Shown piece by piece: positions 1 to 7,084 of a stretch of DNA of 7,084 bases. The stretch lies in assembly GCA_023388385.1 (NCBI GenBank), contig JAEWGK010000083.1, forward strand, positions 1 to 7,084. The letters run 5' to 3'. Numbering within the stretch: the first letter of the stretch is position 1; each line of letters starts with the position of its first letter. The notes under the pieces are model-generated. The model made no database searches, was not told the DNA's origin, and saw nothing but the letters and a program-made list of their open reading frames with translations. The translations under genes and the position numbers were made by a program. This DNA is from Actinomycetes bacterium. GTDB taxonomy: Bacteria; Actinomycetota; Actinomycetes; Mycobacteriales; Mycobacteriaceae.

Positions 1-714
1 AACCCGGTCCCCGAGCCCGAGCGCTTCGACCTGCGCCTCCAGATCTCCTCGATTCGGGCCTTCGCCGAAGATGACCAGATCAACCTCGGGCACGAGCGCC
101 ACCGCATCGAGCGCCAGATTCCACCGCTTCATGTCCGTGAGCCGACCGACGCCGACGAGAAGCGACCGCCCGGGGCCGCCGAGCCCAAATCGTTCAGTGA
201 ACTCCTCCCGCGTCCGCGCCGCGGGCGCCGCCGAAACGCCATTCTGGATCTGGAGTACGTCACGCACCCCATGTCCGGCCAGTTCGTCGACGATGAACGG
301 CGTCACCGCCGTGATCGGGCCACGGAAGACGCGGCAGATGAGCGCTTCCCTCCGGTAGTCGCCGGACATGTTCCCGTGCAGCGTGCCGACGAGCCGGATA
401 CCGCGCATGCCGGCGGTCGCCGCGGCCGCGCCGAGCATCATCGTCGGATTGTGGGCATGGATGACATCAGGGCGGAAGTCGCGGACGATGCGGCGGATCT
501 CACGGACGAAACGGGGAAGTCGGCCGGGCGATCGCTCCACGAGCGGAAGCTCGTGCCATGCATCCGCGGCATCCCGGAAACGCCCCTCCCACGCCCCCGG
601 GGCCATCGCGACGGCGGTGACGTCCCCACCGTCTCTCGAGCGCGCCAGAAAAGCCAGGATCATCATCTCCGCGCCGCCGCAGTCGGCCTTCGCGTTGAGG
701 TGCAGGATGCGCAT
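1..714 (-). CDS. Glycosyltransferase family 4, N-terminal part (3' end outside window)
   Basis: A second GT-B glycosyltransferase for building the repeat unit; 238 residues are visible and the frame is open at the window edge. The N-terminus MRILHLNAKADCGGAEMM has the glycine-rich loop GGAE at 13-16. HAHNP at 86-90, GTLHG at 110-114, the NG of QNGV (157-160), GVGRLTDMKRW (188-198) with Lys196 in the donor-phosphate site, and FGEGPNRGDLE (216-226) follow in the usual GT4 order. The missing part should hold the E-x7-E donor site. Two adjacent ATGs compete: 714 has AGGA (722-725) seven bases away and overlaps the flippase stop by one base; 717 overlaps it by four bases but leaves only four bases to AGGA. 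I prefer 714 for spacing. Third codon positions are less GC-biased than in the kinase gene. The sugar specificity is unknown. Confidence 0.93.
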   Translation of the reverse strand, partial: MRILHLNAKADCGGAEMMILAFLARSRDGGDVTAVAMAPGAWEGRFRDAADAWHELPLVERSPGRLPRFVREIRRIVRDFRPDVIHAHNPTMMLGAAAATAGMRGIRLVGTLHGNMSGDYRREALICRVFRGPITAVTPFIVDELAGHGVRDVLQIQNGVSAAPAARTREEFTERFGLGGPGRSLLVGVGRLTDMKRWNLALDAVALVPEVDLVIFGEGPNRGDLEAQVEALGLGDRV

Positions 715-1958
715 CATCGAGTCCTTTCGTCGGGGTGGGCGACGGGTGCGTCGGTGCGCAGCGCCGCGAGGAGCAGGAGGAGATAGAGGATCACGAACAC
801 GGCCGACTGGACGCAGATGGCGGCGATGAGCGCGTCGCCCTCGAACAGCGTCAGAAGCGTCATCGCGCTGATGGTGCGGAGGGTCGACCAGACGGCGGCC
901 AGGCGCTGCGAGCCGATCATGATCAGGTACTTGTTCACGATGGACAGCAGGAACTGCGCCGCGCAGAACGCGACGACGAGCACCATCAGCCACCATCCGA
1001 CCGTGAAGTCCCGGTTCCAGCGGAGGATGACGATGGCCGCCAGGACGGTGGCGACCGCGGCTGCCGCCGCCAGGATCGCGGCAACCGCCGTCACCTGGAG
1101 CACGCGACCTCGCACGGCGCCCCGATCCCCGCCGCGGACGGTCTCCGCGACGCGCATGTCCATCGCCGGGGCGACGAGCATCATGAACGTGGTGGTGACG
1201 CCGCCGGCGATGCGCTGCAGGCCGGACCACACGATGCCGTTGCCCGTCGCCAGCCCGACGGGGGCCACGGACAGCGCCGGGGACTGGGCGCCGACGATGT
1301 CGATGGACTGCCCGAGGATGGCTTCCCGGTGGGTGCGGATGTATCTCAGGGAGGTCCGGACGCCCCCGTGCCGGGTGTGGCGGAGCAGGGAGATGCCCAG
1401 ACGGCGTTCGCCGACGAGCCAGCCGACGGCGTAGGCGAGGACGCCGGTGGCGGCCAGCGCCGCCGTCCAGTCCGTGACCACCGTGACGGCGACGACGGCG
1501 ACGACATTGACGGCGCCGTAGATGAGGCGGACGGTCGCGTATTCGCGGTACCGCGAACGGCGGACGAAGACGGCGTTGATGATCTGGTAGAGCACCATCG
1601 TCACCGCCATGGCCGTGCTCCACAGCACGATCGACGCGACGTGCGCGGAAACGGGAAGAAGCACCAGTCCCGCGACGACCGCGACCGCGGCGGCGGCCAG
1701 CGTCACACGGACCGTCGCAGCCACCGAGTCCGCCGCGTCCTCCTCCGGCAGCACCGGGTAGACGGCCGGGAACGCCAGACCCGCGATCCGCGCCGCGATG
1801 CTCGCGGCGGCCGAGACGACGACCGCGAAGGTCACCTGAGGGACGTCGCCGGCCGCCAGCGGGATGAGCATCGCGGCGAAGTTGAGGCCCTGGCCGGCGA
1901 GCCCCTGGCCAGCTCCTCCCTTGAGCGCGGCGAGGCGGCCGCGGAGTCCGCCCGCCAT
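714..1958 (-). CDS. Wzx-like lipid-linked repeat-unit flippase, 414 aa
   Basis: Probable MOP-superfamily transporter that moves the undecaprenyl-linked repeat unit across the membrane for polymerisation. The protein is hydrophobic with some ten or more membrane segments. Clear ones lie near residues 83-102, 105-127, 145-162, 164-182, 287-312, 321-345 and 376-397, with weaker pairs at 26-64, 225-260 and 355-372. Short basic loops such as RRSRYREY (133-140) and RHTRHGGVRTSLRYIR (193-208) point to the cytoplasm. Length and helix pattern fit Wzx proteins, which have low sequence identity and no short signature, so the call rests on topology and context. The ATG at 1958 follows the phosphatase TAG directly and has GGAGG (1964-1968) five bases away. 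Its TGA stop (714-716) overlaps the start of the next gene. A polysaccharide exporter with another lipid-linked substrate is the alternative. Confidence 0.82.
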   Translation of the reverse strand: MAGGLRGRLAALKGGAGQGLAGQGLNFAAMLIPLAAGDVPQVTFAVVVSAAASIAARIAGLAFPAVYPVLPEEDAADSVAATVRVTLAAAAVAVVAGLVLLPVSAHVASIVLWSTAMAVTMVLYQIINAVFVRRSRYREYATVRLIYGAVNVVAVVAVTVVTDWTAALAATGVLAYAVGWLVGERRLGISLLRHTRHGGVRTSLRYIRTHREAILGQSIDIVGAQSPALSVAPVGLATGNGIVWSGLQRIAGGVTTTFMMLVAPAMDMRVAETVRGGDRGAVRGRVLQVTAVAAILAAAAAVATVLAAIVILRWNRDFTVGWWLMVLVVAFCAAQFLLSIVNKYLIMIGSQRLAAVWSTLRTISAMTLLTLFEGDALIAAICVQSAVFVILYLLLLLAALRTDAPVAHPDERTR

Positions 1959-2492
1959 CTACGCCTCCCCGGTCAGCGCCGGAGCGAGGATGGCCAGATC
2001 GCGCCGGATGCGGGCGTACGCGTCGGCGTAGTCGTCGGGGGAACCACCGATGGGATCCCCGATCCCCGGGTCCGCCGGTGCGGCCGCACCGCGGTTGAGC
2101 GTGCGCAGGCCGGCGAGCCCGGTGAACTCCCCCGCTTCCGCGAGGGCCGCCAGGTGCGGCAGCGTGAAGGTGCGCCGCAGGGCTCCGGGGAACAGCCGCA
2201 GCACGGCGTCGACGTGCGACTGCTCCATGCCGAGGACGATGTCGGCGCCCACGACGTCCGCACGGGTCAGCCGCCGGGCCGAGTGCCCGGACGCATCGAT
2301 GCCGTCGGCCTCGAGCAGCGCCGCCATCCCGGGGTGGACCGGTTCGCCGACGACGCCCCGCGTGCCGGCGCTGGCGACGGCGAGGGCGGCGCCGGCCTTC
2401 CGCGCCATGTCGCGCAGGAGGATCTCGCCGACCGGGGAACGGCAGATGTTGCCGGTGCAGACGACGAGGACCGAGGGGGCCACGTCGGTCAC
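1959..2492 (-). CDS. Low-molecular-weight protein tyrosine phosphatase (Wzb-like), 177 aa
   Basis: Cytoplasmic phosphatase expected to remove phosphate from the tyrosine tail of the kinase encoded just upstream. Cycling of that phosphorylation is known to control capsule and exopolysaccharide assembly. The catalytic P-loop CTGNICRSP is at 12-20, with nucleophile Cys12 and phosphate-binding Arg18. The general-acid Asp is most likely Asp146 in DPIGGSPDDY (146-155), where Ile148 replaces the aromatic residue common in the family. SAGT at 41-44 is also usual here. At 177 residues it is slightly longer than the typical 150-165. The start is a GTG at 2490-2492 overlapping the kinase TGA as GTGA. 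There is no clear Shine-Dalgarno, only a purine-rich AAGAAG run, so coupled translation is likely. A second GTG at codon 4 (2481-2483) is a less likely start. The TAG stop abuts the flippase ATG. An arsenate reductase of the same fold is unlikely in this context. Confidence 0.95.
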   Translation of the reverse strand: MTDVAPSVLVVCTGNICRSPVGEILLRDMARKAGAALAVASAGTRGVVGEPVHPGMAALLEADGIDASGHSARRLTRADVVGADIVLGMEQSHVDAVLRLFPGALRRTFTLPHLAALAEAGEFTGLAGLRTLNRGAAAPADPGIGDPIGGSPDDYADAYARIRRDLAILAPALTGEA

Positions 2493-3967
2493 TTCTTGGT
2501 CTTCTTCCCGTCGGAGTGGTAGCCGCCGTACCGGTACGCGTCGGCGGCCTCGCCCGCGCTGCGGTTGAGGACGGTGCCGATGACGTGGGCGTTCGCTCCC
2601 TCCAGGGTCTCGATGGCCTCGGCGAACTCGTCCTTGCGGACCTTGCCGTAGCGGGCGACGACGATCGCGCCCTGCGCCGCGGAAGCCAGCAGCGCGCCGT
2701 CGGTCACCGGCAGCAGCGGTGCGGCATCGACGAGGACGTAGTCGTAGTCGTCGGCCAGGTCCTCGAGCAGCGTGCGGCAGGCGCGGGAGGCGATGAGCTC
2801 CGCCGGGTTCGGCGGGATCTCGCCGCTGGCGACGACGTCGAAGCCGCGATCCGCGTGGTGCTGCACGGCGTCCTCGACGGTGCAGTCACCCGCAAGGATG
2901 GTGGACAGGCCGACCTGGGACTCGATGCCGGTTCCCAGGGCGGAGGCGACGCGCGGGCGGCGCAGGTCGCCGTCGACGACGCAGACGCGGTGCCCCTCGG
3001 CCGCGAGGGCGGAGGCGAGGTTGAGGACGGTCGTGGTCTTGCCCTCGCCCTGGCGGGCGGAGGAGACGGCGATGAGCTTCGGCGGATTGTCCACGTCGAC
3101 GAAGCGCAGGTTGGTGCGCAGGCCGCGGTAGCTCTCCGCCGCGCCGGTGCCGTCGGTCGCGTAGTCGGGCAGGTGGCCGTCCTCCAGCACGCGGCTGGAC
3201 GGGATGGTGGCCAGCACCGGGGCGCTGGTCGCGACCTCCAGATCGCGCCGGCGCTTGACGGTGGTGTCCCGCAGCACCGCGATGGCGATGCCGAGGGCCG
3301 CGAGGATGAGGCCGGCGATGGCGCCCAGGACGGTGTTGCGCACGACGTTCGGCGAGCTCGGCGACATCGGCACGCCGGGGCCGTTGACGACGGTCATGGA
3401 GCTGACCGGGGTGCGGGTCTCCGTGGTGTCGGCGGGGCGCCAATTCCCCTCGTCGTCGTATCCGGCCGTCGTCGTGGTCTCCGTGGACGTGTAGTCGAGG
3501 TCGCCGACCACGTCGATGAGGGTGGACGCCACGGCCTTCGTGATGCGCGCCGACTGCTCCGGGTCCTCGTCGGTCACCGTGATCGTGAGCAGGACGGTGT
3601 CCGGGGTCGGGGTCGCCGTGACGCGCTTCGCCAGGTCCTCCGGGGTCTCCTGGAGGCCGAGCTGCTCGATGACGGGGACGAGCACGGCGTGGTCGTCGGC
3701 CAGCTGGGCGTAGCTCGCCAGGCGCTGTTCGAGGAACATCGACTGCTGGTACATGGAGACGTTGTCGGCCTCCGTGGACGCGGTGACGAACAGATCCGCC
3801 GACGAGGAGTACTGCTTCGGCATGAACTGGGACGCCGCCCAGCCCGCGATGGCGCCGACGACGGCGGTGGCGAAGAGCACCCACGCGTAGCGGGACAGCG
3901 CGGAGATGATGCGGCCGAGGGCCTCGTTGCCCCCCGCGGCGGGGGTGGCGTTCCTCTTCTGGGTCAT
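2489..3967 (-). CDS. Chain-length regulator (Wzz domain) with C-terminal BY-family tyrosine kinase, 492 aa
   Basis: Polysaccharide co-polymerase that sets chain length and autophosphorylates on tyrosine (Wzc/CapAB type). Residues 10-130 are a Wzz-type N-terminal domain with a first membrane helix at about 28-48. A Thr-rich outer segment lies near 160-190. The proline motif PGVPMSPSSP (197-206) precedes the second helix at about 210-233, which holds GAIAG. The cytoplasmic kinase has Walker A in SSARQGEGKTTT (302-313, Lys310), Walker A' in VVDGDLRRPR (330-339, Asp332 and Asp334), the family motif GEIPPNPAELI (382-392) and Walker B in VLVDAAPL (411-418, Asp414). The short C-terminal tail carries Tyr478, Tyr480 and Tyr483, then a Lys-rich end. 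The ATG at 3967 is chosen because AGGA lies seven bases upstream (3975-3978) and the length and N-terminus are typical. The frame stays open upstream into the polymerase, so an N-terminally extended or fused form cannot be excluded. Its stop overlaps the phosphatase start by four bases. Confidence 0.93.
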   Translation of the reverse strand: MTQKRNATPAAGGNEALGRIISALSRYAWVLFATAVVGAIAGWAASQFMPKQYSSSADLFVTASTEADNVSMYQQSMFLEQRLASYAQLADDHAVLVPVIEQLGLQETPEDLAKRVTATPTPDTVLLTITVTDEDPEQSARITKAVASTLIDVVGDLDYTSTETTTTAGYDDEGNWRPADTTETRTPVSSMTVVNGPGVPMSPSSPNVVRNTVLGAIAGLILAALGIAIAVLRDTTVKRRRDLEVATSAPVLATIPSSRVLEDGHLPDYATDGTGAAESYRGLRTNLRFVDVDNPPKLIAVSSARQGEGKTTTVLNLASALAAEGHRVCVVDGDLRRPRVASALGTGIESQVGLSTILAGDCTVEDAVQHHADRGFDVVASGEIPPNPAELIASRACRTLLEDLADDYDYVLVDAAPLLPVTDGALLASAAQGAIVVARYGKVRKDEFAEAIETLEGANAHVIGTVLNRSAGEAADAYRYGGYHSDGKKTKK

Positions 3968-5218
3968 GGTGTCGTCCTGTCGTGTCGTGATGTCGTGGCT
4001 GGGCCGGGGGGGGGCGGTGATCGCGCGGGCGGTGCCGGGTGGTCGTGCGGGAGACCCGGGGTCTCCGACCGCGGCTGCCGCGGGTGGCGGGGGCGGTGGT
4101 GGCGGCGGGGGCTCCGCCGGGTCGGGCGCCGCGGCCATTCGCCTCCTGTCGGTGGCGGTGATGAGGATGAGGAGGATGAACGGCAGCAACGGCGTCAGGT
4201 GGCGCAGGGCCGACCCGTAGTCCGGCTCGAACAGCGCCTGGACGGAGACGAACGCCGTCACGAACGCGATGGCCCGGGCGGTGACCGGCGGAACGGGGCC
4301 GTCGCGGAACGCGCCCACCGCCCAGAGGAAGGTCGCCCACAGGGCGAAGATCACCACGGCGAGCACCGCGTGGTAGACGGTGCCGAGGGAGAGCATCGGC
4401 AGCGGCAGCATGAGGAAGATGAACGTCGTGACGTTGTTCACGGTCCCGCCGATGGGCTCCGGCCAGGAGACCAGCCGGCCGATCAACGTCGCCGTGGCGT
4501 CGCCGCCGACGCGGTACTCGTTGACGGAAACGCGGAAGGCGTCCGGGGCCTTGCCCGTGATGACCCAGATGGCGAAGCCGAAACCCGCCACGAGCACGAG
4601 CGCGGTGAGCAGGATTCCCCGGGTGCCGCGGCGCAGGGCCAGGAGGATCCGGAACACGACGAACGCGGCGGCGATGAGCAGCCAGTACGGCCGGTACCAG
4701 ACGCCGAAGCCGAGGCATCCGGCGACGACCGCCAGGTCCCACGCCCAGTGGCGCGGCAGCAGGAGGACCGCCGCGACGAGAAACGCGACGAGCAGCTCCT
4801 TCGTGTGCGTGCCCAGGAACGCGGCGCCGATGATGATGCCGCCGCCGAGCACCGCCGCGACCGCCGTGGAATCCGGCACGCCGCCGGCGCGCCAGATGGC
4901 CAGGCCGACGCCAAGCAGGAGTGCGCCGAAGCCCAGGAATCCGGCGAGGAGGCGGTCGGCGCCGATGCCGATCGCCTCGTAGAAGTACGCGATGTCGGCG
5001 AAGGAGCCGAGCTGCTCCTCGTCGAGCGCCACCGGGTACTCGATGAGTCGGCGGATGCCCTCCGCATCGAAGTCGAAGCGGTCCGGGAAGATCGACTCCC
5101 GGAACATCACCATGACGAGCCCGACGAAGACGGCGAGGCCGATGACGGTGATGGCCGACGCGATCGGCCGGACCGGGTCCGTCGCGCCGCTGCGCCGGAC
5201 GCGGGTCAGAAGGTTCAT
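3968..5218 (-). CDS. Multi-spanning membrane protein, probable Wzy-like polysaccharide polymerase, open into the downstream kinase
   Basis: Likely joins flipped repeat units on the outer face of the membrane. This is inferred from topology and from its place beside the chain-length regulator and flippase genes; no diagnostic catalytic motif is visible. The ATG at 5218 overlaps the upstream TGA as ATGA and has GGAGG (5226-5230) seven bases away. About ten or eleven hydrophobic segments can be drawn, near residues 18-38, 90-109, 118-137, 142-155, 158-175, 178-195, 201-221, 261-278, 282-305, 312-330 and 341-355, with a polar loop at about 40-88. EPDYGSALRHLTPLLP (331-346), just before the last helix, is the most motif-like stretch. 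After residue 360 comes a low-complexity Pro/Ala tail with ten prolines at 370-379. No stop codon follows: residue 417 runs in frame into the kinase Met. One base fewer in the G run at 4006-4014 would give a 417-residue protein ending at the TGA in 3964-3966. An O-antigen-ligase-like role or another membrane glycosyltransferase is possible. Confidence 0.72.
3975..3978 (-). promoter_or_regulatory. Ribosome binding site that supports the kinase start at 3967
   Basis: AGGA on the coding strand with a seven-base spacer to the ATG at 3965-3967. It argues that the kinase can be made as a separate protein even though the frame is open upstream. Confidence 0.65.
4006..4014. repeat. Nine-base G homopolymer (C9 on coding strand) in the polymerase-kinase linker
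   Basis: Nine consecutive G on the plus strand, read as GCC CCC CCC CGG (Ala-Pro-Pro-Arg, linker residues 402-405) on the coding strand. It is the longest single-base run I found in the linker. Removing one base changes the downstream reading from continuous fusion to a TGA at 3964-3966 that overlaps the kinase ATG. Runs of this length are prone to replication slippage and to sequencing or assembly errors. Confidence 0.95.
4050..4066. repeat. Inverted repeat (8-base arms, 1-base centre) inside the linker
   Basis: Arms GGAGACCC (4050-4057) and GGGTCTCC (4059-4066) are exact reverse complements. In RNA this could fold as a six-base-pair stem with a five-base loop. No U tract follows, so it is not an intrinsic terminator. 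It lies between the polyproline codons and the C9 tract, upstream of the kinase ATG. Confidence 0.6.
4082..4111 (-). repeat. Ten consecutive proline codons
   Basis: Residues 370-379 of the frame that starts at 5218 are all proline, encoded by mixed CCC, CCG and CCA codons and followed by four alanines. Polyproline stretches stall ribosomes unless EF-P relieves them. Here the run sits just after the last membrane helix of the polymerase, so it could act as a stiff linker, as a pause site, or as a degenerate tail. Confidence 0.9.
4142..4147 (-). promoter_or_regulatory. AGGAGG motif before an in-frame internal ATG (4136-4138)
   Basis: A perfect AGGAGG on the coding strand lies just after the last polymerase helix, three bases before an ATG in the same frame as the kinase. 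Initiation there would give a kinase of about 549 residues with a Pro-rich N-terminal extension. The spacing is shorter than the usual five to nine bases, so efficiency is doubtful and the match may be chance, since it encodes Arg-Arg within a basic run. Confidence 0.35.
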
Positions 5219-6282
5219 GCGGCGGCCTCCGTGGGCAGGCCATAGAGGGAACGGACGGCGGTGGCGAAAGCCTCCGGGGCATGGCGCCTGCGGATCGGTT
5301 CCCATGCGGACAGGACGGCGCCGGGGTCGTCGAGTGCGGCCACGACCTTCGCCGCGGCCTCCCCCGCATCGGAGTAGCGGGCCGCCGCGGGCGCGTCCTC
5401 GAACGCCGCGATGCCGGGCACGAGCACCGGCACGCCGGCGCTGAAGGCCTCGAGGACGGAGACGGGGAAGCCGTCGTTGGAGGCGCTGTGCAGGTAGACG
5501 GAGAAATTCGCCATGCGGTGCAGGACCTCGTGCTTCGCCGCCCAGCCGGTGATCTCGACGCCGGCATCCTCGAGCACGGCGCGCAGCTCCTTCGGGCCGT
5601 CACCGATCCACGTGAAGCGGACGTCGGGACGTTCGGCGCGGACGCGGCGCACGACGTCGGCGAACATCTCCGGACGACGCATGGCCGCGATTCGCGCGGC
5701 GATGCCCACCTCCGGCGGCTGCGCCGGACTCCACTCCATGTCCGGGATCTCCTCGCCGACCAGACCGTTCGGCAGAGGATGGCGGGGCAGGAACGGATTG
5801 ATGCGGCCGAGCAGGCGGTCCTCGCGCGACGAGCAGCCGGCGAAGGTGCCACCGGCGAGCGACAACGCCACCTCGGCGGCGAGGAACACCAGCCGCTTCG
5901 GCATCGTGCGCCCCGAGTCGTCGAACGCCAGACTGTGCGGCGTGTAGACGACCCGGGACCGCAGGCGGCGGTCGGCGCCGCAGGCCAGCCGCGCGTAGGC
6001 GCCGCCGAAGCTGGAGTGCGCGTGGATGACGTCGGGGTCCAGCCCGCGCGCGACGCGGCGGACCTCGCGGATAGCCGCGGCATGTCCCTCGGGCAGCGCC
6101 AGGACGTCGTCGTAGACGCCGTCGCGCACCGGATCCCCGGGGTGCACCGTGCGGCGGGCGTTCCACAGCAGGATGTGGCGGGCGTCCGGGGCGACGGCGG
6201 CGTACCGGCGGATCATCGACTCGACGCCACCGCCATAGCACTCGGTGACGTGGAGGATGAGGCGGCTTCGGACGGCCGCCAT
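5215..6282 (-). CDS. Glycosyltransferase family 4 (GT-B fold), 355 aa
   Basis: Probably adds a sugar from a nucleotide donor to the lipid-linked repeat unit on the cytoplasmic face. The N-terminal domain has YGGGVESM at 16-23, the glycine-rich acceptor-side loop, and HAHSSFGG at 87-94. The C-terminal donor-binding domain has PNG at 171-173, GIAARI at 193-198, GDGP at 227-230 and SNDGFPVSVLEAF at 268-280. That last stretch is the usual E-x7-E site, with Asp270 in place of the first Glu and Glu278 kept. The length is normal for GT4. No signal peptide or membrane segment is seen. The start at 6282 is chosen because it overlaps the upstream TGA as TGATG and gives a standard N-terminus (MAAVRSRLILHVTE). 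The nearest Shine-Dalgarno-like AAGGA (6295-6299) is 12 bases away, so translation probably relies on coupling. The frame stays open far upstream, but that part is a shadow of the sugar transferase gene. Donor and acceptor are unknown. Confidence 0.93.
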   Translation of the reverse strand: MAAVRSRLILHVTECYGGGVESMIRRYAAVAPDARHILLWNARRTVHPGDPVRDGVYDDVLALPEGHAAAIREVRRVARGLDPDVIHAHSSFGGAYARLACGADRRLRSRVVYTPHSLAFDDSGRTMPKRLVFLAAEVALSLAGGTFAGCSSREDRLLGRINPFLPRHPLPNGLVGEEIPDMEWSPAQPPEVGIAARIAAMRRPEMFADVVRRVRAERPDVRFTWIGDGPKELRAVLEDAGVEITGWAAKHEVLHRMANFSVYLHSASNDGFPVSVLEAFSAGVPVLVPGIAAFEDAPAAARYSDAGEAAAKVVAALDDPGAVLSAWEPIRRRHAPEAFATAVRSLYGLPTEAAA

Positions 6283-7084
6283 CAGTACGCGCCGTCCTTG
6301 CCGATCACGGCCTTGGCGGTGCGGAACAGGATGTTGAAGTCGAGCGACGGGGTCCAGTTGTCGACGTAGAGGAGATCGAGGGCGATCGACTCCTCCGGCG
6401 ACAGGTTCGAGCGGCCGGAGACCTGCCACAGACCTGTCATGCCCGGGCGGACGGTGAGGCGCATCCAGGCGTCGGCGTCGTACTCGTCGCGCTCCTGCGC
6501 GAGCGGCGGACGCGGGCCGACGAGGGACATGGAGCCGCCGACGACGTTGAACAGCTGCGGCAGCTCGTCGATGCTGTAGCGGCGGATGAACCTGCCCACC
6601 TTCGTGACGCGCGGGTCGTCCTTCATCTTGAACAGCAGGGTCCCCTGACCGGTCTGCTCGGCCAGGCGCTCGCGCATCGTGTCCGCGTCGACTCTCATGG
6701 AGCGGAACTTCCACATGCGGAACTCCTCGCCGTCGCGGCCGATGCGGGTCGCCCGGTAGAACACCGGGCCGCCGTCGCCGGCCTTCACTGCGATGGCCGT
6801 CGCGAGAAGGACGGGGCCGAAGGCGATCACCAGCAGCGCACCGACGACGATGTCGAAGAGCCGCTTGAGCACGCCGTTGGCCGAGACGTTGCCCGCGCGC
6901 TGGACCTTCATCACGGACTGGCCCTGGATGCGGGAAACGCTGACGCGCTGCGGGCTCACCGACGCCAGGTTCGGGTACAGGTAGACCGCGATGCCGAGGG
7001 GCGTGCACGCCCACGTCATGCGGCGAATCCACTCGGGGGACACGGAGCCGGGGCACATGACGACGATCCCGTCGACGCCGAGCG
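6282..7084 (-). CDS. Polyprenyl-phosphate sugar-1-phosphate transferase (priming enzyme), 5' end missing
   Basis: Membrane enzyme that moves a sugar-1-phosphate from a nucleotide sugar to undecaprenyl phosphate, the first step of repeat-unit assembly. The frame is open to the window edge and the true start lies outside it; 266 residues are visible. The upstream codons read LGVDGIVV into the Met at 7058 and continue the regulatory domain typical of the family, so that Met is unlikely to be the start. Numbered from it: a membrane helix at about 66-92 opening with KRLFD and carrying a mid-helix Pro82 (as in the re-entrant helix of this family), GPVFYRATRIGRDG at 97-110, WKFRSM at 116-121, the acidic pair in SIDELPQLFN at 162-171, GSMSLVGPRPP at 175-185, VRPGMTGLWQVSGR at 203-216 and a C-terminal DGAY. 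These are hallmark motifs of the bacterial sugar transferase family (WbaP/CpsE type). The sugar specificity cannot be read. Its TGA stop shares one base with the ATG of the next gene. Confidence 0.95.
   Translation of the reverse strand, partial: LGVDGIVVMCPGSVSPEWIRRMTWACTPLGIAVYLYPNLASVSPQRVSVSRIQGQSVMKVQRAGNVSANGVLKRLFDIVVGALLVIAFGPVLLATAIAVKAGDGGPVFYRATRIGRDGEEFRMWKFRSMRVDADTMRERLAEQTGQGTLLFKMKDDPRVTKVGRFIRRYSIDELPQLFNVVGGSMSLVGPRPPLAQERDEYDADAWMRLTVRPGMTGLWQVSGRSNLSPEESIALDLLYVDNWTPSLDFNILFRTAKAVIGKDGAY

Follow-up and report, generated by a model that had tools for sequence, protein, structure and literature searches.

One reading frame joining a polymerase-like membrane domain to a predicted Wzz/BY tyrosine autokinase, with a candidate internal start for the kinase

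The 7,084-nucleotide stretch analyzed here (positions 1 to 7,084 of contig JAEWGK010000083.1, assembly GCA_023388385.1, family Mycobacteriaceae; hereafter the window) raises the question of whether a polysaccharide polymerase and its co-polymerase kinase can be encoded by a single gene and, if so, whether that gene makes one protein or two. On the minus strand, a single frame of 909 residues without internal stops opens with an ATG at 5218 and closes with a stop codon at 2491 to 2489 (2489..5218); it comprises a polymerase-like membrane domain, a linker, a Wzz-like domain, and a bacterial tyrosine (BY) kinase, as delineated from the open reading frame, 13 fused relatives, and alignment A1. A preliminary description of this DNA had stated that no stop separates the polymerase-like part from the kinase and that a Pro- and Ala-rich linker of about 57 residues joins them; the frame is indeed unbroken over its 909 residues, and the linker counts 57 residues, including 19 Pro and 12 Ala, with MTQKRN beginning at residue 418. 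We favor, at a probability of about 0.57, an unbroken fusion of a likely Wzy-type polymerase and a predicted Wzz/BY autokinase, from which an internal start would also yield the kinase alone.

Recurrence of the joined frame

A full-length query against 5.8 billion proteins recovered 13 other fused proteins (P0004 to P0016) of 870 to 946 amino acids, so that the database check proposed earlier, a search for proteins spanning both domains, was borne out in relatives. Query coverage was 94 to 100% in 12 of the 13 and 55% in P0009, for which the single best segment was counted. One fused relative, representing a cluster of 11 member sequences, was 99% identical to the window protein, and the other 12 had identities of 33 to 76% in alignment A1. 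All six named fused relatives were Corynebacterium: sp. 335C, C. sphenisci, TAE3-ERU12, C. uterequi, and C. variabile (twice). The database names of the fused proteins include, among others, “hypothetical protein” and “polysaccharide biosynthesis tyrosine autokinase”; the latter masks the presence of a roughly 360-residue membrane enzyme in the proteins that bear it and offers a practical handle.

The competing idea put forward in the preliminary description was an indel at the junction, that is, a sequencing or assembly error that merges two ordinary neighboring genes. The worry is reasonable in view of a run of nine C inside the linker (4006..4014, minus strand), a possible slippage site, and a TGA overlapping the kinase ATG exists in another frame of the window junction. 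Against it stand the 99% identical protein and the 12 further fused relatives, together with the DNA itself: the 14 fused copies (window counted) show nine different inter-domain distances, every one in frame, and the 13 copies other than the window have no run of six or more in the linker and are all still joined. An indel at the nine-C run is very improbable on this evidence. A stop between the domains, which had been named as the observation that would speak for two genes, was absent from the close relatives and occurred solely in the distant kroppenstedtii group, where the two parts share a frame and the polymerase is 32% identical to that of the window. Openness of the linker was considered as proof of coding and rejected: random linkers of matched composition stayed open in 93% of the trials made for the window and, depending on the copy, in fractions of 0.26 to 1.00. 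Because openness by itself is weak, the above-chance evidence for the fusion is its recurrence. At the sequence level, a polymerase-like protein and a predicted Wzz/BY kinase are covalently joined. As a separate observation, slippage at the nine-C run could in principle split the two products in the window, with termination at the TGA over the kinase ATG in the other frame.

Predicted identities of the joined parts

The polytopic, polymerase-like domain (residues 1 to 360; 4139..5218, minus strand) was delimited from a structure model with a glycosyltransferase C (GT-C)-like predicted fold, from the rows of a structural second look (VIA-align), and from conservation over 30 rows. The model of residues 1 to 367 had a mean predicted local distance difference test score (pLDDT) of 90.7 and a predicted template modeling score (pTM) of 0.90. 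The top 22 rows of the second look were all GT-C-type proteins, which we take to be nine lipid-phosphate-sugar users, ten oligosaccharyltransferase subunits, and three glycosylphosphatidylinositol-transamidase U chains. FtsW and RodA, proteins of the shape, elongation, division, and sporulation (SEDS) family, scored no more than 4.2 and 3.3, respectively, and the O-antigen ligase WaaL was not named among the 50 listed rows. As modeled, the predicted fold is nearer to that of GT-C_A-type proteins than to that of SEDS proteins. It was the second look that showed this likeness to GT-C proteins; Foldseek gave no match at an E value of 0.001 or better when the domain was compared with a viral library.

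Conserved residues over the 30 rows were D51, K140, R176, Y178, W179, R229, E331, D333, and H340, with R176, R229, and H340 present in 30/30 rows and D51 in 28/28 ungapped rows. Polymerases of clan GT-C3 (CAZy families GT122 to GT124) have a long loop on the N-terminal side, two conserved Arg, one Asp, and one His (PMC10920833). The domain has two such Arg, an Asp, and a His, matched by pattern with their equivalence assumed, and its long predicted loops comprise residues 39 to 88, which link predicted membrane helices one and two, and residues 222 to 255. The long C-terminal-side loop of clan GT-C1 (SEDS and O-ligase-type Wzy) was lacking, the predicted loops past residue 256 having 10 residues or fewer. 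The domain is thus likened to GT122 to GT124 by pattern, which is not a family assignment. The earlier label “Wzy-like” holds insofar as the domain is a polymerase-like membrane enzyme, and is refined to a predicted fold closer to GT-C_A-type proteins than to SEDS, with a GT-C3 residue pattern.

From its fold, its residues, and its place in the locus, the membrane domain is likely a Wzy-type (GT-C) polysaccharide polymerase. Two points count against this assignment: Foldseek found no PDB match for the domain at an E value of 0.001 or better, and a review assigns Wzy to the SEDS family (PMC12004945), which the fold here does not resemble most. No Pfam polymerase model occurred among the matches of the 30 polymerase members. 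The domain could instead be a GT-C enzyme, tethered to the co-polymerase, whose role is to attach a side sugar outside the membrane, the chain polymerase being another protein. That all of the top 22 structural rows are GT-C-type and that FtsW and RodA score merely 4.2 and 3.3 would suit such a transferase. The two invariant Arg, the invariant His, the Asp that is invariant where present, and the long N-terminal loop fit GT-C3 and argue for a polymerase (PMC10920833), as does the joining of the domain to a co-polymerase. The ten other polytopic or membrane-associated proteins found by the loci belonged to antiporter, acyltransferase, MFS, PTS, MMPL, or histidine kinase families and likewise speak against the transferase: no alternative polymerase was found among the ten, in a scan that left out the Wzx-like and sugar-transferase counterparts and did not extend to the genomes outside these loci, a limit that tells against the polymerase assignment. 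A side-sugar transferase is, in our assessment, unlikely.

The remainder of the chain is a Wzz-like/BY-kinase part of 492 amino acids (residues 418 to 909; 2492..3967, minus strand). TIGR01007 matched it with 160.8 bits, and the whole fused protein with 159 bits, against a cutoff of 108.05. The Wzz model PF02706 scored 25.4 bits with the kinase part and 24.2 bits with the whole protein (cutoff, 25.5), and 10 of the other 13 fused proteins carried precomputed matches to it. The Wzz-like co-polymerase domain (3269..3886, minus strand) has the two-helix layout of Wzz, with predicted membrane helices at residues 445 to 465 and 625 to 650 flanking 159 residues that would lie on the extracytoplasmic side. 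The BY-kinase domain (residues 695 to 900; 2519..3136, minus strand) contains GEGKT at 724, DLRRP at 751, and VLVD at 828, presumably the Walker A, Walker A', and Walker B-like motifs, respectively, and tail Tyr residues at 895, 897, and 900. When the fused model was compared by fold, its best matches were Wzc structures (PDB 7nhr and others). By sequence, this part is predicted to be a Wzz/BY tyrosine autokinase.

The linker (residues 361 to 417; 3968..4138, minus strand) is predicted from pLDDT and composition to be disordered, with pLDDT under 50 for residues 365 to 431. Hydropathy, charges, and predicted helices place the polymerase C terminus, the linker, and the Wzz N terminus in the cytoplasm, provided that a short helix at residues 256 to 270 is re-entrant. 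GC content at third codon positions (GC3) was lower in the linker than in the gene body in 14/14 copies, and linker length varied by whole codons only, both of which are expected for a translated former spacer. Protein-level selection on the linker is not supported, the near relatives L006 and L007 differing by four nonsynonymous and one synonymous codon changes in 39 codons; the linkers of L010, L011, and L140 had no synonymous and at most one nonsynonymous change in 18 codons, which are small numbers. A fused precursor might be cleaved by a protease in this linker, so that separate proteins work and the fusion is a convenience of translation. The predicted disorder, the poor sequence conservation in alignment A1, and the L006/L007 changes would be in keeping with cleavage. 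On the other side, alignment A1 shows no motif common to the linkers, the frame is kept across nine domain distances, and the kinase start signal described below would be needless for a precursor; cleavage is quite unlikely.

A candidate internal start and the stoichiometry it would allow

The kinase part begins at an in-frame ATG (residue 418; 3965..3967, minus strand), predicted by comparison of copies to be the internal start of a free Wzz-kinase, with a Shine-Dalgarno (SD)-like AGGA (3975..3978, minus strand) 7 nucleotides upstream. The kinase start has such an ATG in 13 of the 14 fused DNA copies: it is in frame, is preceded by AGGA or GGAG at a spacing of 5 to 8 nucleotides, and lies 24 to 35 codons ahead of a Trp conserved in the first helix of the Wzz part. 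The same 4-mer accompanied 31 of 253 other in-frame ATGs, a background drawn from 18 frames, 14 of them fused and 4 split, with upstream read-in included (Fisher 1.5e-10, without kinship correction), and, under the same rule, 14 of the 22 predicted starts of standalone Corynebacterium kinases. In the gene bodies, AGG accounts for 37 of 618 Arg codons; in 10 of the 14 copies it was among the codons just upstream of the ATG, with a varying peptide and spacing around it. The sequence comparison suggests two products, the fusion and a free Wzz-kinase, and we read the linker as a former intergenic spacer that carries the ribosome-binding site of the kinase and through which translation now continues. 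The preliminary description had held that a fusion would fix the ratio of the two activities; as a 1:1 statement this is probably wrong, because the kinase retains its own start signal in 13/14 copies.

Other observations tell against an internal start. The case for it is built from sequence. The 4-mer signal is missing from the C. uterequi copy (G235), and a single close group makes up 10 of the 14 copies, so that independent lineages number about five. Duplex energy with the anti-SD tail ranked the kinase-start ATG second to sixth of 12 to 23 in-frame ATGs, always within the upper half but first in 0/14 copies, and, in 13 copies, a linker ATG came first in three, each time one other than the kinase-start ATG. 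Finally, the window has a second in-frame linker ATG (residue 361) with AGGAGG 3 nucleotides upstream (4136 to 4147, minus strand). A start at that ATG would yield a kinase carrying the Pro-rich linker as its N terminus.

If the internal ATG were unused, the fusion would be the only product, and rings would consist entirely of fused subunits, or the polymerases would lie outside the ring, at a fixed 1:1 ratio. The inter-domain frame unbroken in 14/14 copies, the missing signal in C. uterequi, and the failure of the internal ATG ever to rank first by duplex energy are compatible with this. The 4-mer in 13/14 copies, measured against 31/253 background ATGs and 14/22 standalone starts, and the AGG retained in 10/14 copies argue for a start in use; in addition, eight polymerases would, as we infer, misfit a published ring with one polymerase in its lumen (PMC10030265). 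We judge a fusion-only gene to be rather unlikely and prefer the fusion with an additional free kinase.

The two predicted products can be combined in a more specific picture, to which we give somewhat less than even odds: the gene would encode a self-assembling ring, with the first ATG yielding the polymerase-kinase chain, internal initiation yielding the free kinase, and a single polymerase covalently built in. On the favored reading, Wzz-kinase subunits form a ring, and the polymerase likely sits in its membrane lumen; the disordered cytoplasmic linker would tether the polymerase C terminus to one subunit, and free kinases from the internal start would fill the remaining places. Autophosphorylation and the neighboring low-molecular-weight (LMW) phosphatase would then drive assembly and disassembly of the ring, with the polymerase unable to diffuse away. 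Under the more specific picture, stop-codon loss would have set one polymerase per ring and internal initiation would set the ratio, a natural covalent capture of a Wzy-in-ring arrangement with a kinase-type co-polymerase. The published background is a WzzE:WzyE ratio of about 8:1 with WzyE in the ring lumen (PMC10030265) and the proposal that assembly and disassembly of the Wzc octamer regulate Wzy (PMC11986026), and it comes from Gram-negative proteins, which detracts from the picture. Several kinase partners per polymerase are likely. Eight fused chains would bring eight polymerases, so the ring model needs free kinase; with six candidates scored per genome, no second full-length BY kinase occurred among the listed matches of the 13 fused genomes, and hence the internal start would supply it. 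The other kinase matches in these genomes, from 1.8e-13 on, covered the ATPase part alone, except for the frameshifted gene of G004, which appeared as two pieces.

All of the modules are known. Like the fused protein, Wzc, a polysaccharide co-polymerase 2a (PCP-2a) tyrosine autokinase (PDB 7nhr and others), has a Wzz-like domain and a BY kinase in one chain and has a phosphatase partner (PMC11986026), as the LMW phosphatase neighbors the fused gene; Wzc differs in that it is Gram-negative, has an outer-membrane partner, and carries no attached polymerase. WzyE-WzzE of the enterobacterial common antigen is a polymerase/co-polymerase complex with one polymerase per ring (PMC10030265), made from separate genes and proteins and without a kinase, whereas the Corynebacterium pair is one chain. 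Actinobacterial standalone Wzz-BY kinases, e.g., P0134 and P0017 of Rhodococcus (41% and 39% identical, respectively), share the kinase part, are not fused to a polymerase, and have 458 to 587 amino acids in the best 20 rows. In type III secretion, the single gene for SctQ/YscQ gives a full-length and an internally started C-terminal product, both needed for ring assembly (PMC4295842); the machine is another one, and the internal product, demonstrated there, is predicted for the fused kinase. No published description of a Wzy-Wzz or polymerase-kinase fusion was found in the open-licence literature, and the word “fusion” was absent from the main text of PMC10920833. Within the literature searched, a covalent joining of these modules that retains an internal start is not described. 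By analogy with Wzz-Wzy, Wzc and Wzy are expected to form a complex (PMC11986026), and a natural fusion makes contact with the polymerase, and its regulation, by a kinase-type co-polymerase directly testable. The fused complex should stay together on purification and could be labeled via one gene, and, if the internal start is used, a 1:n assembly would be written into a single gene.

Distribution, history, and neighboring genes

A polymerase profile search found the polymerase in 21 of 242 Corynebacterium genomes, and 40 of the same 242 had a kinase match below 1e-30 (13 fused, 4 from the kroppenstedtii group, and 23 standalone). Both polymerase and BY kinase were present in 17 genomes, in one frame in 13 and abutting in the same frame in 4; in the four kroppenstedtii-group genomes, a TAA directly precedes the kinase ATG, and the reading frame is shared with the polymerase. 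The polymerase carriers G067, G068, G236, and G187 had no fused or abutting kinase, their best kinase matches being 5.3e-10, 5.6e-10, 6.8e-10, and 9.2e-11, respectively. In G067 (L133, 6441 to 8459), the polymerase frame continues into a long, acidic, uncharacterized C-terminal tail in place of a kinase. One of the 13 fused genomes, Corynebacterium sp. CNJ-954 (G004), is frameshifted inside the kinase part (L010, about 9653 to 9755), by a real change or a sequencing error; this copy was counted in the junction statistics and is absent from the trees. Standalone relatives of the kinase part, proteins of about 271 to 861 amino acids, had identities of at most 42% among the 120 listed of 773 matches, and none of those 120 was a close relative.

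Beyond Corynebacterium, no polymerase-kinase fusion was named from another genus among the 16 proteins listed by a profile search that re-found six of the fused proteins and missed seven. The polymerase was present in 2 of 394 genomes of a class sample and in 6 of 397 of an order sample, the centers G008 and G001 included, in open frames of 399 to 642 amino acids (G001 excepted); the 642-residue frame of G756 results from upstream read-in and contains no kinase. A first genome scan with the whole fused protein as the query gave no relatives, and a plasmid search gave two weak partial matches. Another genome scan took the best 80 of 96, and two rows from its 53 Pseudomonas loci entered alignment A3. 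In the metagenome protein P0127 (655 amino acids), a related polymerase is joined, by our reading of the sequence, to a Wzz-like part without a kinase, and the joining of polymerase and co-polymerase may thus have happened more than once. P0128 (768 amino acids) has the same type of polymerase fused to a GT4-like glycosyltransferase (precomputed PF00534 and PF13692).

A kinase tree built on 47 rows united the 13 fused rows with the 4 split ones in one clade (support, 98/95), the split rows being nested inside, and a single clade of fused rows alone was rejected (approximately unbiased test, p-AU 0.0215). A polymerase tree of 34 rows had two fused clades, and neither a fused-only single clade (p-AU 0.111) nor the fused and split rows held together (p-AU 0.318) was rejected. 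The split group has a different fused clade as its sister in each of the two trees, and one fusion followed by a re-gained stop and two separate fusions both fit. The fusion likely originated when neighboring, translationally coupled genes in a capsule or extracellular polysaccharide (EPS) operon lost the stop codon that separated them, whereby the former spacer and the kinase ribosome-binding site would have become the linker.

Save for the missing stop between polymerase and kinase, the locus looks like an ordinary capsule/EPS operon, with all of its genes on the minus strand. Upstream of the fused gene lie a bacterial sugar transferase, an initiating phosphoglycosyltransferase (6282..7058; PF02397, E 1.7e-65) that is near the window edge and probably longer, its counterparts having 506 to 589 amino acids, and a GT4-type glycosyltransferase (5215..6285; PF13692, E 6.2e-14) whose stop overlaps the polymerase ATG. 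Downstream, an LMW tyrosine phosphatase (Wzb-like; 1959..2492; PF01451, E 1e-24) has a GTG start that overlaps the kinase stop. It is followed by a membrane protein (714..1958) that has no Pfam match and is provisionally placed as the Wzx flippase, with counterparts of 8 to 10 hydrophobic segments, and by a GT4-type glycosyltransferase cut by the window edge (1..717; PF13439, E 5.7e-17).

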